From the NCBI GenBank assembly GCA_903920145.1, contig CAIXKV010000215.1, positions 1 through 40,185 on the forward strand: DNA of 40,185 bases, in the 5' to 3' direction. A program made the position numbers and the translations under genes. The DNA comes from an uncultured Rhodospirillales bacterium (GTDB taxonomy: Bacteria > Pseudomonadota > Alphaproteobacteria > Azospirillales > Azospirillaceae). Shown here piece by piece: positions 1 through 40,185 of the stretch. Position 1 is the stretch's first letter. The number at the start of each line of letters is the position of its first letter. Under the pieces are notes generated by a model. That model saw nothing but the letters and a program-made list of their open reading frames with translations, made no database searches and was not told the DNA's origin.

Positions 1-37
1 ATACCGGCGATGTGTCAGTATCAGGGCTCGCCGGTAT
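1..37 (+). repeat. Dispersed hairpin element, tail fragment (copy A)
   Basis: This is the last hairpin of the dispersed element, cut by the window edge. Arms ATACCGGCGA (1-10) and TCGCCGGTAT (28-37) are perfect reverse complements around a 17-base loop. The same hairpin ends copies B, F and G. A nearly complete copy follows six bases later in the same direction, so the window opens inside a tandem array. Confidence 0.85.
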
Positions 38-42
38 GACAC

Positions 43-187
43 CATCAGGCCTTGATGTTGACTCATCAAGGCTGCCCTCAGACGCCGGGCGGGCGCATCC
101 GCGCCCTTGGCTTCGCGCGCATGGGCGCGCGGGGCCGCCGTCGCGGCCCGATACCGGCGATGTGTCATCGTTATAGCTCGCCGATAT
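43..187 (+). repeat. Dispersed multi-hairpin element, nearly complete (copy B)
   Basis: Five hairpins follow one another. I: GCCTTGATG / CATCAAGGC (49-57, 64-72) with loop TTGACT. II: GGGCGC / GCGCCC. III: CGCGCGC / GCGCGCG around ATGG. IV: GGGCCGC / GCGGCCC around CGTC. V: ATACCGGCGA (151-160) / TCGCCGATAT (178-187) with one mismatch. Bases 188-228 resemble a decayed start of another copy (a diverged form of the CAGACGCCGGGCGGGCGC stretch). The copy lies beyond the secB 3' end. Stems I and III differ from those of copy G by paired changes that keep base pairing. Confidence 0.85.
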
Positions 188-227
188 CAGACGCTGGGCA
201 GGCGCGTCCGTCTCTTCACGGCGCATG

Positions 228-258
228 AAAAGAAAGAGCGGGCAAGAGGCCCGCGCTC
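228..258 (-). terminator. Likely Rho-independent terminator of secB
   Basis: Read on the minus strand, GAGCGCGGGC (249-258) can pair with GCCCGCTC (236-243) with a two-base bulge and a short loop. A T-rich run (TTTCTTTTC) follows at once. It lies about 30 bases past the secB stop codon, where a terminator is expected. Confidence 0.6.
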
Positions 259-12085: not shown

Positions 12086-13660
12086 ATGAACGCGGCTAAT
12101 CCCCTGGTTTTTCTCCTGCCCGATGAAGCGGCCACTCAGCGATTGGCAACGCGGCTAGCTCCCTATGTTGCGAGCGGCGGCGGTCTCGTGACGTTGGTCG
12201 GAGAGCTGGGAGCCGGCAAGACGGCGTTTGCCCGAGCCCTGATTCGGGCCTTGACCGGCGACCCCAATGAAGAGGTGCCAAGCCCCACCTTCACCCTGGT
12301 TCAGAGCTATGACACCCCCCAAGGGCTGGTCACGCATTTCGACCTGTATCGGATCACCGACGCCGAAGAGCGGATCGAACTGGGATGGGACGATGCCGTG
12401 GCCAACGGAATCGTGCTGGTGGAATGGCCCGAACGGCTGGGGACGTTCTTGCCGCCCGAACGTCTTGAAATCACCCTGTCTCCTGATCCCGCCGCTGGCC
12501 CCGATGCCCGAATCGCAACCCTCACCGCCCATGGCCAGCCCCAAAGCCGTTGGGCGAGTGTGCCATCAGCCCTGGCTGATCCCATGATACCGGCGAGCCC
12601 TGATACTGACAGATCGCCGGTATCGGGCCGCGACGGCGGCCTTGCAGACTCCGAGCCTCCCCTCCTCCGGTTCCTGGCCGCTCATGATCTGATGGCGGCG
12701 GAACGGCAGACTCTTGCCGGCGATGCCTCGACCCGGCATTACCAACGCCTGCGCCTTTCAAACCGACCATCCTTGATTCTGATGCAAGCCCCCGATCCCG
12801 AGCGGGAGCTGCTGCCCTTTATCACCGTCGCCGAATGCCTGCGTCCGCTGGGCCTGTCGGTGCCGGAGATTTACGCCGTCGATGCCGATGCCGGTTTGAT
12901 GCTTCTGGAAGACTTCGGCGATGCTTCTTTTGCACAGTGTTTAGACGCGGGCGCCGAACCAGAGCCGCTGTATCGTCTGGCCGTGGATGCCCTGATCACA
13001 CTGCATAAAACCTTTATCCCCGATTCTGGCTCCGGTTCTTCCTCTGCAACGGCGACGCTGCCGATTTTCGACGCCGCCCGCTTTCTCGATCAGGCCATGC
13101 TTTTTGCTGAATGGGCCCCGCCTGCGATGAGGGGCCATCCCCTGGACAGCGCTGCCCGCTCCGCATTCGAAGCCGCTTGGCAGGCGGTTCTCCCCCAGGC
13201 CCTCACCCGGTCAACCCTGCTATTGCGCGACTTCCACGCCGGCAATCTGATGCACCTGCCCGATCGGGCCGGAGTGCGAGCTTGTGGTTTGCTGGACATC
13301 CAAGATGCCGGACTTGGCCCGGCGACTTATGATCTGGTCTCTCTGATCGAAGATGCTCGCCGTGATCTGGCCCCGACCGTGGCTGAAGCCATGATCGGGC
13401 ATTATGAGGCCGCCTTCCCAGACCTAGATCCGGCGGCCCTTCGGCGGGAATGGTCGGTGCTGGCGGTCCTCCGCCATACCCGCGTGATAGCGGTCTTTCT
13501 GCGCCTTGCTGCGCAGGGCAAACGGGGCTATCTGGCCCACCTGCCCCGTGTACAACGCTATTTAAGTCGGGCATTGGCGCATCCCGCCCTCGCCCCCATG
13601 GCGGATTGGTTTGCCTGCCACATGCCGATGATCCATGGCGATGATACCGGCGAGCCCTGA
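12086..13660 (+). CDS. Bifunctional TsaE / APH-fold phosphotransferase (AmgK-like) fusion
   Basis: Residues 1-150 form a TsaE domain, the ATPase of the threonylcarbamoyl-A37 tRNA machinery: Walker A GELGAGKT (39-46), SPTFTLVQSYD (66-76) and HFDLYRI (84-90), with VEWPERLG. Residues about 192-510 form an aminoglycoside-phosphotransferase-fold kinase: LMLLEDFGDASFAQ, LLRDFHAGNLMHL (about 378-390, catalytic loop) and LLDIQDAGLGPATYDLVSLIED (metal-binding Asp). Such fusions are known in alphaproteobacteria, where the kinase resembles AmgK (N-acetylmuramate/GlcNAc 1-kinase of cell-wall recycling). Residues 167-186 of the linker are encoded by a dispersed-repeat copy (12586-12641), and the last residues and stop come from another repeat fragment. 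The usual downstream nucleotidyltransferase gene (murU) is absent. The kinase substrate is inferred. Confidence 0.9.
   Translation: MNAANPLVFLLPDEAATQRLATRLAPYVASGGGLVTLVGELGAGKTAFARALIRALTGDPNEEVPSPTFTLVQSYDTPQGLVTHFDLYRITDAEERIELGWDDAVANGIVLVEWPERLGTFLPPERLEITLSPDPAAGPDARIATLTAHGQPQSRWASVPSALADPMIPASPDTDRSPVSGRDGGLADSEPPLLRFLAAHDLMAAERQTLAGDASTRHYQRLRLSNRPSLILMQAPDPERELLPFITVAECLRPLGLSVPEIYAVDADAGLMLLEDFGDASFAQCLDAGAEPEPLYRLAVDALITLHKTFIPDSGSGSSSATATLPIFDAARFLDQAMLFAEWAPPAMRGHPLDSAARSAFEAAWQAVLPQALTRSTLLLRDFHAGNLMHLPDRAGVRACGLLDIQDAGLGPATYDLVSLIEDARRDLAPTVAEAMIGHYEAAFPDLDPAALRREWSVLAVLRHTRVIAVFLRLAAQGKRGYLAHLPRVQRYLSRALAHPALAPMADWFACHMPMIHGDDTGEP
12586..12641 (-). repeat. Dispersed element fragment read in frame inside the TsaE-kinase gene (copy D)
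   Basis: In minus orientation this fragment matches the last part of the element (hairpins IV and V) with, by eye, a single substitution in 55 bases (AGA in place of ACA in the loop). It is read without interruption as residues 167-186 of the fusion protein, between the two domains. Confidence 0.9.
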
Positions 13661-13699: not shown

Positions 13700-13740
13700 A
13701 TGACGATCCCTCATCAGCCAGAAGCCAAGTGCGACGGCGA
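13700..13740 (+). pseudogene. Possible 5' remnant of a gene cut by the repeat
   Basis: An ATG at 13700 is preceded by AAGGAAG at a good ribosome-binding distance and starts MTIPHQPEAKCDGD, which then runs directly into repeat copy F. In relatives the kinase gene is commonly followed by the nucleotidyltransferase murU, so this could be the broken start of such a gene. The 14 residues are too few to identify, and the idea rests on position and the ribosome-binding site only. Confidence 0.25.
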
Positions 13741-13866
13741 CCCATCAAGGCTGCCCTCAGACGCCGGGCGGGCGCATCCGCGCCCTTGGCTTCGCGTCCA
13801 CGAGGACGCGGGGCCGCCGTCGCGGCCCGATACCGGCGATGTATCAGTATCAGGGCTCGCCGGTAT
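13741..13866 (+). repeat. Dispersed multi-hairpin element, 5'-truncated (copy F)
   Basis: The copy starts at the right arm of hairpin I (CATCAAGG) and lacks its left arm. Hairpins II (GGGCGC/GCGCCC), III (CGCGTCC ACGA GGACGCG), IV and V are complete. Hairpin V has perfect arms ATACCGGCGA / TCGCCGGTAT. The copy lies between the TsaE-kinase gene and the 3' end of prpE. Confidence 0.88.
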
Positions 13867-22405: not shown

Positions 22406-22496
22406 GGTCACGTCCTCCAAACGCCGTCAGGAATCAGCCGCCGGAGTAGGCTTTTTGAAACACCCTTATGTCAAATGATAGATTTATGATTAATAC

Positions 22497-22641
22497 CATC
22501 AAGCTTTAATGTTGACCCATTAAAGCTGCCCTCAGACGCCGGGCGGGCGCATCCGCGCCCTTGGCTTCGCGTCCACGAGGACGCGGGGCCGCCGTCGCGG
22601 CCCGATACCGGCGATGTGTCAGCATCAGGGCTCGCCGGTAT
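22497..22641 (+). repeat. Dispersed multi-hairpin element, complete (copy G)
   Basis: All five hairpins are present. I: AGCTTTAATG (22502-22511) / CATTAAAGCT (22518-22527), loop TTGACC, 10 bp perfect. II: GGGCGC/GCGCCC. III: CGCGTCC/GGACGCG around ACGA. IV: GGGCCGC/GCGGCCC. V: ATACCGGCGA/TCGCCGGTAT. Compared with copy B, stems I and III carry paired substitutions. The copy lies between the ABC permease start and the small secreted-protein gene and fills most of that 428-base gap. Confidence 0.92.
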
Positions 22642-37991: not shown

Positions 37992-39095
37992 ATGCTCGCC
38001 CTGCCGAGAGCTGTCGTCATTGACCGTATGGTGGAGACCGAGTTGGCGGTTGTAACGAATTTGGACCCGAAGCGACACGAGGCGCCCTTGCCCCAGGCCC
38101 CTTCGACCCCGGCCCCGTCGACCCCGCTGGACGCCCTCGCCGATCTGGTTGCCGATGACCTCTTGGCAGTCAACGAGCTGATTGTCCAGCGCATGCATTC
38201 ATCCGTCGAGATGATTCCGCGCTTGGCCAGCTATATCGTTTCGGCGGGCGGAAAGCGGCTGCGTCCTTTGCTGACCCTGGCTTCGGCACGTCTGTGCCGC
38301 TACACCGGGGATCGCCACCTGGGCTTGGCCGCTGCGGTGGAGTTTATCCACACCGCGACTCTGCTGCACGACGATGTGGTGGACGAAAGCAATTTGCGTC
38401 GGGGCTTGGCTTCGGCAAATGCCGTGTTCGGCAATAAGTCCAGCGTGCTGGTCGGGGATTTCCTGTTCTCACGAGCCTTTTTGCTGATGGTCGAGACCGG
38501 CTCGTTAGAGGTTCTGCGCATCCTGTCCCAAGCGTCGGTGGTGATCGCTGAAGGCGAAGTGCTTCAACTTCAAACCACCAACGACACCAACACCACCGAA
38601 GAATCCTATCTTGAGGTCATCTGTGCCAAGACGGCGGCCCTGTTCGCGGCAGCCTGCCGGTCTAGCGCGGTGGTGGCGGGGCGACCAGAGGCAGAAGCCG
38701 CCGCTCTTGACGACTATGGCATGAATCTCGGCATCGCCTTCCAGTTGGTGGATGACGTGCTGGATTATTCGGCGCTCCAAGCCCGGTTGGGAAAGACCGT
38801 CGGGGACGACTTCCGGGAAGGCAAAATCACATTGCCCGTGGTTCTGGCCTTCCGGCGCGGCAGCGAAGAGGAGCGGGTTTTCTGGCGGCGAGTGCTGGAA
38901 GACACCGAACAGACCGAAGGCGACCTCGATCACGCGATCCGACTGATGACCCAACACAGGGCCTTGCGCGACACCATGGACCGGGCGCGCCAATACGGCA
39001 CCCTTGCCCGTAACGCCCTCAGTGGGTTCGACGACAGCCCCGAGAAGCGCATTTTGCTAGAGATCATCGACTTCGTGATTGATCGGGAATACTGA
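37992..39095 (+). CDS. Polyprenyl diphosphate synthase (IspB-like, long-chain)
   Basis: This trans-prenyltransferase builds the long isoprenoid side chain of ubiquinone (or a related quinone) from farnesyl diphosphate and isopentenyl diphosphate. It shows GGKRLRPLLTLASA, the first Asp-rich motif LLHDDVVDES, GDFLFSRAF, and the second Asp-rich motif FQLVDDVLDY, followed by GKTVGDDFREGKITLPVVLA, all typical. I start at the ATG at 37992, with GGGAG ten bases before it; the in-frame ATG at 38028 (MVETELAVVTNLDPKR) is an equally fair choice. The stop codon at 39093-39095 overlaps the first bases of a dispersed-repeat copy. Divergent from the methyltransferase gene. The chain length cannot be read from sequence with confidence. 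Confidence 0.92.
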   Translation: MLALPRAVVIDRMVETELAVVTNLDPKRHEAPLPQAPSTPAPSTPLDALADLVADDLLAVNELIVQRMHSSVEMIPRLASYIVSAGGKRLRPLLTLASARLCRYTGDRHLGLAAAVEFIHTATLLHDDVVDESNLRRGLASANAVFGNKSSVLVGDFLFSRAFLLMVETGSLEVLRILSQASVVIAEGEVLQLQTTNDTNTTEESYLEVICAKTAALFAAACRSSAVVAGRPEAEAAALDDYGMNLGIAFQLVDDVLDYSALQARLGKTVGDDFREGKITLPVVLAFRRGSEEERVFWRRVLEDTEQTEGDLDHAIRLMTQHRALRDTMDRARQYGTLARNALSGFDDSPEKRILLEIIDFVIDREY

Positions 39096-39240
39096 TACCG
39101 GCGGAGCCATGACGCTGACACATTGCCGGTCCTCGGGCCGCGACGGTGGTTCTGCGTCCTCGTGGACGCGAAGCCAAGGACGCGGACGCGCCCGCCCGGC
39201 GTCTGAGGGCGCCGCAGACGTGTCAACGTCCAAGGCCAAT
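39094..39240 (-). repeat. Dispersed multi-hairpin element, diverged (copy H)
   Basis: In minus orientation the copy carries hairpin I (CCTTGGACG / CGTCTGCGG on the minus strand, loop TTGACA, with one mismatch and two wobble pairs), II (GGGCGC GTCC GCGTCC with one G-T), III (CGTCC/GGACG), a damaged IV and a diverged V. The start overlaps the stop codon of the polyprenyl synthase. It is the most diverged of the long copies, yet stem I is largely kept by different bases. Confidence 0.85.
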
Positions 39241-39648: not shown

Positions 39649-40185
39649 ATGGCGGCGGTGGCGTTCGATACCTACAAGATGGTCAAGCGGCTTCGTGAGT
39701 CGGGGTTCACCGACGTGCAGGCTGAAGCCGTCACGGCGGCCGTCCAGGAGGCTGGCTCAGTCGATCTGTCTCACTTAGCGACCAAGGAAGACGCGGCCAC
39801 GGTCAAGACCGAGGTCGTCGCTGTAAAGGTCGACGTCGCTGCGGTGAGAACCGAAGTCGCCGCTGTGAAGACCGATGTTGCTGCGGTCAAGACCGAAGTC
39901 GCCGCTGTGAAGACCGATGTTGCTGCGGTCAAGACCGAAGTCGCTGCGGTCAAGACCGAAGTCGCCGCTGTGAAGACCGATGTCGCTGCGGTCAAGACCG
40001 AAGTCGCCGCTGTGAAGACCGATGTTGCTGCGGTCAAGGCCGAAGTTGCCGCTGTGAAGACCGACGTTGCTGCGGTCAAGGCCGAAGTCGCCGCTGTGAA
40101 GACCGATGTTGCTGCGGTCAAGGCCGAAGTCGCCGCTGTGAAGACCGATGTTGCTGCGGTCAAGGCCGAAGTTGCCGCTGTGAAG
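39649..40185 (+). CDS. DUF1640-like (CCDC90 family) coiled-coil protein, 3' end outside the window
   Basis: The frame is open for all 179 codons to the window edge. It starts MAAVAFDTYKMVKRLRESGF, followed by TDVQAEAVTAAVQEAGSVDLSHLATKEDAA, which resembles bacterial DUF1640/CCDC90 proteins: small coiled coils normally ending in a membrane helix. From residue 52 it is a run of heptads of the form VK(T/A)(E/D)VAA, 18 complete repeats so far, with Val and Ala at positions fit for a coiled coil. AAGGTGAG precedes the ATG. The usual C-terminal membrane helix would lie beyond the window. The opposite strand is also open (Thr/Ala/Val/Ser repeats), but it has no start signal and is a shadow. The function is unknown. 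Confidence 0.8.
   Translation, partial: MAAVAFDTYKMVKRLRESGFTDVQAEAVTAAVQEAGSVDLSHLATKEDAATVKTEVVAVKVDVAAVRTEVAAVKTDVAAVKTEVAAVKTDVAAVKTEVAAVKTEVAAVKTDVAAVKTEVAAVKTDVAAVKAEVAAVKTDVAAVKAEVAAVKTDVAAVKAEVAAVKTDVAAVKAEVAAVK
39802..40185 (+). repeat. 21/42-bp tandem repeat encoding heptads
   Basis: Eighteen 21-bp units and part of another are visible. They mostly alternate as VKTEVAA and VKTDVAA pairs (42 bp). From the twelfth unit the first type changes to VKAEVAA (ACC to GCC) and then repeats regularly, showing that recent expansion copied a pair. The array runs off the window. Confidence 0.95.

Follow-up and report, generated by a model that had tools for sequence, protein, structure and literature searches.

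A probable high-copy MITE in an uncultured Azospirillaceae bacterium, with TNA target duplications and a three-hairpin module shared among alphaproteobacteria

An important question raised by this locus is what kind of repeat places five hairpins in a constant order several times in one contig of an uncultured Azospirillaceae bacterium, and whether the fold itself has been maintained for a reason. The window, namely the whole stretch of 40,185 nt analysed here, is contig C215 of a genome of 4.26 Mb in 269 contigs. The four copies and the fragments that a first-pass annotation had reported in this window do exist, with the limits listed below, and a half copy can be added to them. The repeat is about 147 bp long and non-coding, no gene being called inside, and it is very probably a non-autonomous mobile element (MITE), whose terminal inverted repeats (TIRs) and hairpins I to V are located as follows.

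1 to 36, + strand: hairpin V from the right end of an adjacent copy, which TGA joins to copy 1
40 to 186, + strand: MITE copy 1, full length, flanks TGA and TCA
49 to 57 paired with 64 to 72, + strand: left TIR/hairpin I of copy 1
75 to 80, + strand: CCCTCA of copy 1
84 to 111, + strand: hairpin II of copy 1
114 to 131, + strand: hairpin III of copy 1
132 to 149, + strand: hairpin IV of copy 1
152 to 186, + strand: right TIR/hairpin V of copy 1
about 187 to 228, + strand: a further core, fragment (CAGACGCTGGGCAGGCGCGTCCG)
12588 to 12641, + strand: right half of a MITE (hairpin V and one arm of hairpin IV), inverted, preceded by TGA
about 13733 to 13865, + strand: MITE copy 2, truncated at the left end, core at 13754 to 13831, TTA after the right end
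22494 to 22640, + strand: MITE copy 3, full length, TAA on both flanks, between divergent genes
39096 to about 39243, - strand: MITE copy 4, left TIR decayed, directly after a TGA stop codon (39093 to 39095)
39649 to 40185, + strand: coiled-coil protein with a CCDC90-like match, cut off by the contig end; its 7-residue repeat TEVAAVK/TDVAAVK comes from 21-bp repeats

Five hairpins had been assigned to every copy, and this holds for copies 1 and 3 (starting at 43 and 22497 in the first-pass annotation), the only two of the four window copies in which all five fold, with z values of -3.6 and -5.1, respectively, against 200 dinucleotide shuffles. It does not hold for copy 2 (13741), which lacks the 5' arm of hairpin I, or for copy 4 (39094), in which hairpin I has decayed to the pairs GACGT/ACGTC and the fold is less distinct from dinucleotide shuffles (z -1.9). 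The half copy at 12588-12641 lies in frame in the linker of a TsaE-APH fusion ORF (12086-13660, + strand); the same fusion occurs without the MITE insert in the sister genome G001, and the TsaE and APH parts are separate matches in other relatives.

The repeat is real and far beyond chance, because the end pattern TACC..CGAGCC.TGAT..TGAC.CATC has 812 matches (409 + 403) in the genome while the reversed-pattern control has none. The same pattern was found 17 times in G001 and 0-1 times in each of the sisters G002-G004. An initial similarity search of the genome gave about 40 copies of 92-97% identity, and a covariance model of the core gave 67 copies in stretches that total 290 kb and were almost all chosen for holding copies. 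On the basis of the pattern counts and these sampled stretches, we roughly estimate the copy number in the genome at 400-900.

Limits of the element are sharp among aligned copies, with T-N-A outside both ends. Its left part reads T-N-A, TACC(A/C)TCGAGCCTTGATG-GTGAC-TCATCAAGGCTG-CCCTCA, and this is followed by hairpins II, III and IV, by TACCGGCGATGTGTCAGTATCAGGGCTCGCCGGTA and again by T-N-A. When the right end is reverse-complemented, it matches the left end at 22 of 28 positions, and hairpins I and V thus lie inside imperfect 28-bp TIRs. Length varies (102, 123, 148, 152 and 165 bp), the right end has alternative forms and an additional internal hairpin occurs, all of which shows mosaic evolution.

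The flanks indicate where the element inserts: its target is TNA, and these 3 bp appear to be duplicated on insertion. T.A was found beside 131 of 148 MITE ends and, in pairs flanked by TNA, the middle base was equal in 21 of 32 (expected 38%, p = 0.0013), the 11 unequal pairs being largely nested or tandem copies; ten element-TNA-element junctions were counted in the stretches read, some of which overlap. At one locus, that of copy 4 at 39096, whose right junction is decayed, the orthologous site is empty in G001, G002 and G003, where the gene is followed by a short spacer. All 45 copies counted in 290 kb are intergenic and none is intragenic, against 79% of coding DNA, the in-frame half copy at 12588-12641 being left out of this count. 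Among copies with genes on both sides, 13 gaps are tandem, 8 convergent and 4 divergent, and the MITE strand relative to the genes shows no preference (6 same, 7 opposite); these gene calls come from a simple home-made codon-usage caller that rewards Shine-Dalgarno motifs. The first-pass annotation had considered a mobile unit that needs its hairpins, and the hairpin ends agree with this suggestion, while the TIR nature of these ends, the TNA duplication and the separate module of hairpins II-IV had been missed.

Because the MITE codes for nothing, it must be moved in trans. A clue to the mover was found in a relative, G041, which has a 181-bp MITE with TTA on both sides and a TIR that matches an IS630-family end of Sinorhizobium, connecting the two TIR types. 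The IS630 elements of Sinorhizobium and Rhizobium have the ends TACCAACGAGCG...TGATCATGACCGATG and a frameshifted transposase (PF13358), and 8 of the 9 copies read are flanked by TTA/TTA or TAA/TAA. After TACC, 15-16 of 24 bases are identical between the TIRs of the present genome and the rhizobial IS630 end (shuffle p about 1.5e-4 and 1e-5). A related end is present in an IS630 element of Azospirillum G020, and two IS630 copies of G002 have TAG/CTA flanks; the duplication usually described for IS630 is TA. No IS630 element bearing the exact ends of the MITE was found in this genome or the relatives examined. No intact IS630 transposase was found in this assembly, and its single PF13358 match is a remnant without such ends; for this reason we infer the mover, and the MITE is most likely served by an IS630-type transposase.

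Several other candidates for the parent element have been rejected. Most IS630 loci in relatives were set aside, as only those of G020 and G002 have TACC ends and these are not the MITE's own. A TIR pair 1.5 kb apart (L089, 1346-2842) encloses an ordinary ion-channel gene. The IS4/IS5-type transposases (PF01609), seven of which occur in the genome, have no matching TIR or are remnants; those at L131 and L134 are decayed remnants near which MITEs have inserted. A different MITE, having long near-perfect TIRs (TACCAATGAGCGCTGATAATGACCCATAGAGATCGCC), TTA on both sides and no hairpin core, was observed in G041 (L109, 2040-2222; L110, 4498-4785).

Hairpins II-IV constitute a separate, widely shared module, which is distinct from these TIRs. 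Its consensus is CCCTCA-R-N-C-(GCC GGGC stem ATCC stem TT GGC)-T..-(III)-(IV), with invariant CCCTCA, GGGC bulge, ATCC loop and TTGGC framing the stems. Exact copies of the 28-nt hairpin II GCCGGGCGGGCGCATCCGCGCCCTTGGC are present in at least 64 stretches of many alphaproteobacteria, including, among the matches listed, Azospirillaceae, Magnetospirillum, Tistrella, Sphingomonadaceae, Nitratireductor, Phyllobacterium and Acetobacteraceae. The bulge and loop of hairpin II are almost fixed while its stem varies (GGGCGC/GCGCCC, GCGCGC/GCGCGC, GCCCGC/GCGGGC, GGCGGC/GCCGCC, GCAGGC/GCCTGC and GCGGAC/GTCCGC). With the core covariance model, matches were obtained in 27 genomes out of 289 in the class, representing about 17 families; for many of the 27 the copy count is a lower bound, and no organism outside Alphaproteobacteria was among the matches listed in the core searches. 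Rfam gave only tRNA in the window and nothing above gathering in five related loci, and a literature search by sequence string and topic found no published description of the core or the MITE.

Outside the present lineage the core often occurs without TIRs. The complete set of five hairpins, bounded by TACC and flanked by TNA, was also found in other genera and families; it is present in Azospirillum sp. RU38E, A. ramasamyi, G020, G041, G260 and two uncultured lineages, where stems I and V are wholly different and mostly near-perfectly paired; the TNA is equal in 13 of 16 such copies under a scoring that favours equality, and a copy of A. ramasamyi folds with z = -9.1. Other arrangements have been observed as well. 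In Sphingomonadaceae, tail-to-tail inverted core pairs of about 200 bp (L147, 1930-2135; L150, 2568-2790; L167, 4920-5111) carry ACCTCA/TGAGGT at their two ends or close to them, and a target duplication is not obvious. A second core type (L153, L201, L145), in which CCCTC-GCCGGGC...TTGGCC is followed at once by a short hairpin, e.g. GCGGCCTCAATGGCCGC, is repeated in tandem about every 63 bp in an uncultured Rhodospirillaceae and in Tistrella. The exact 28-base hairpin II is also present in seven IMG/VR contigs (L301-L307), and hence (pro)phages may carry it between hosts.

Whether the stems covary had been the central claim on this DNA, and it stands across genera and is weaker within the genome, where pair-breaking changes are common. 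Stem variants quoted earlier for copies B, F and G are exact, but the "two paired substitutions" seen in hairpin III are instead a swap between whole-hairpin alleles: in this genome hairpin III has mainly three discrete alleles, accounting for 23, 14 and 5 of 64 rows. Pairing in hairpin I is lost in 47 changed cells and kept in 40. It had been stated that unpaired stem changes at the rate of loop changes would point to chance, and within the genome this is in part what we found (8.7% in stems versus 11.5% at unpaired positions); covariation within the genome, which reduces to a few hairpin alleles, was dropped as a proof. Stems II, III and IV covary across genera, and the evidence is strong. 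In 58 aligned cores, 130 double-change cells were found versus 44.7 +/- 4.8 in shuffles and 29-55 in slid-partner controls. A statistical check was made with a null in which the changes of each column are scattered over the tree. Of 2926 column pairs, the ten that scored best are all within the structure, in an alignment that was itself fitted to the structure; four pairs in stems III and IV have E < 0.05, and pairs of stem II have E of 0.06-0.11. In a MAFFT alignment E was below 0.05 for two pairs, which both belong to the structure. Variation in hairpin II is hidden because many of the sequences were selected by an exact hairpin II match; at an orthologous place between the same two genes of two Sphingomonadaceae (L147, L167), two changes, both fully compensatory, separate the stem II sequences.

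In genomes having solo cores without TIRs, the CCCTCA end is close to a gene edge: the core may follow a stop codon by 1-16 nt (overall within about 20 nt) or, on the other strand, place GAGGG 6-9 nt before the starts of ruvC, ruvA, aroB, moxR, a VTT-like gene and others. Two Magnetospirillum share the sites at ruvC and ruvA, and an orthologous placement is also kept in two Sphingomonadaceae. Because the home-made caller rewards Shine-Dalgarno motifs and at least one call (L162) is doubtful, the placement at gene edges is a lead, not a count.

These placements, together with unpaired bases that are invariant across orders while the stems covary, could be read as a structured RNA with a function in host mRNA, either 3'-end protection or translation control through the GAGGG Shine-Dalgarno sequence, the MITEs being merely carriers. 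We regard this as possible but doubtful: in the present genome neither strand is preferred and tandem, convergent and divergent gaps are used alike, which argues against a simple cis-regulatory role there, and at the threshold applied 262 of the 289 genomes of the class lack the core. That the unpaired bases stay fixed favours a conserved partner recognising the fold. We tentatively propose, as an idea with a similarly modest chance of being right, a structured RNA (or single-strand DNA) motif not described before: hairpins II-IV, alike in fold and unpaired bases across alphaproteobacteria, would be recognised by a cellular partner that is itself conserved, and they would occur both as a solo element at gene edges and as the load of IS630-type MITEs from several independent families. 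A process of mutation alone, in which template switching between the arms of quasi-palindromes keeps the hairpins perfect with no selection, agrees with the whole-hairpin alleles that differ at several pairs at once, and GC-rich palindromes are known substrates for template switching. This process could explain stem complementarity but not fixed loops, since it leaves the conserved unpaired CCCTCA, GGGC bulge, ATCC loop and TT across many families unexplained, and we consider it unlikely.

Much less likely is a palindromic repeat of the REP/REPIN kind, in which hairpin II would be the REP and a RAYT (Y1 tyrosine transposase) would move it; the bulged GC-rich stem of hairpin II is REP-like and the inverted core pairs in Sphingomonadaceae fit. 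The first-pass annotation did not recognise a REP, and rightly so, because a core or TIR adjoins none of the 21 Y1 transposase loci inspected, of which two are in this genome and the others in relatives, the tetranucleotide beside the hairpin is not conserved, with the bases after TTGGC varying between copies, and single-strand HUH transposition is not expected to give TNA duplications. Numerous contigs start or stop inside a MITE copy, as an assembly artefact or chance similarity might produce, but a true high-copy repeat causes such breaks by itself; the absence of control matches, the unique flanks with TNA duplications and the fact that Niveispirillum and Azospirillum have this element in finished replicons leave this explanation with a negligible probability.

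We therefore prefer MITEs that are mobilised in trans by an IS630-type transposase and carry an old structured module, a reading that we hold to be highly probable as a whole. In the mechanism proposed, hairpins I and V are imperfect TIRs resembling the ends of the -1 frameshift IS630 subgroup, and an IS630-type transposase would move the non-coding MITE in trans into TNA, duplicating three bases. The MITE would be an IS630-type carrier of the older structured repeat (II-IV), which is much more widespread than these ends and keeps its fold, with the invariant unpaired bases, in many alphaproteobacteria; the MITE has been amplified explosively in the present lineage. A conserved partner would recognise the folded module, most likely at the RNA level because the module adjoins transcribed gene edges. 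Solo cores without TIRs need other means of spread or strict vertical inheritance.

Comparison with known systems places the MITE near, but not within, described families. Correia elements of Neisseria and RUP of pneumococcus are MITEs derived from IS630. The present MITE resembles them in being short, non-coding, TIR-bounded, high in copy number and intergenic, and presumably in using an IS630-type transposase in trans; it differs in the 3-bp TNA duplication (TA in Correia and RUP), in the hairpin ends and in a three-hairpin core shared across families, and no related sequence links them. The -1 frameshift IS630 elements of Sinorhizobium/Rhizobium (NZ_CP023069, WP_086018031) and Azospirillum G020 are similar in the TIR TACCAACGAGCG...TGATCATGACCGAT and the TWA duplication, and they differ in being about 1.16 kb long, encoding a transposase and lacking the core. 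GTAG-REP/REPIN sequences with RAYT are likewise dispersed intergenic hairpins with hundreds of copies, sometimes in inverted pairs (PMC3733652, PMC2817692); unlike them, the MITE has neither a nearby RAYT nor a GTAG tag, and it has a target duplication and a multi-hairpin unit. CGTC-tagged REPs are, like the core, dispersed palindromes prevalent in alphaproteobacteria with no dedicated transposase known, having 8-9 bp stems that start with AT and a CCA tail (PMC3733652); compared with this description, the core differs in its bulged GC stem with GCC-GGGC, its ATCC loop and its CCCTCA lead.

Bacterial repeats are usually lineage-specific, and an identical 28-nt hairpin in many alphaproteobacterial families is unusual; together with the covarying stems, it suggests that some partner recognising it is shared. 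With hundreds of copies in one genome and none in the sisters at the locus checked, the element provides a natural experiment. If the module acts in RNA, mobile DNA would have supplied ribosome-binding sites and transcript ends to genes across the class, including ruvC, ruvA, aroB and others.
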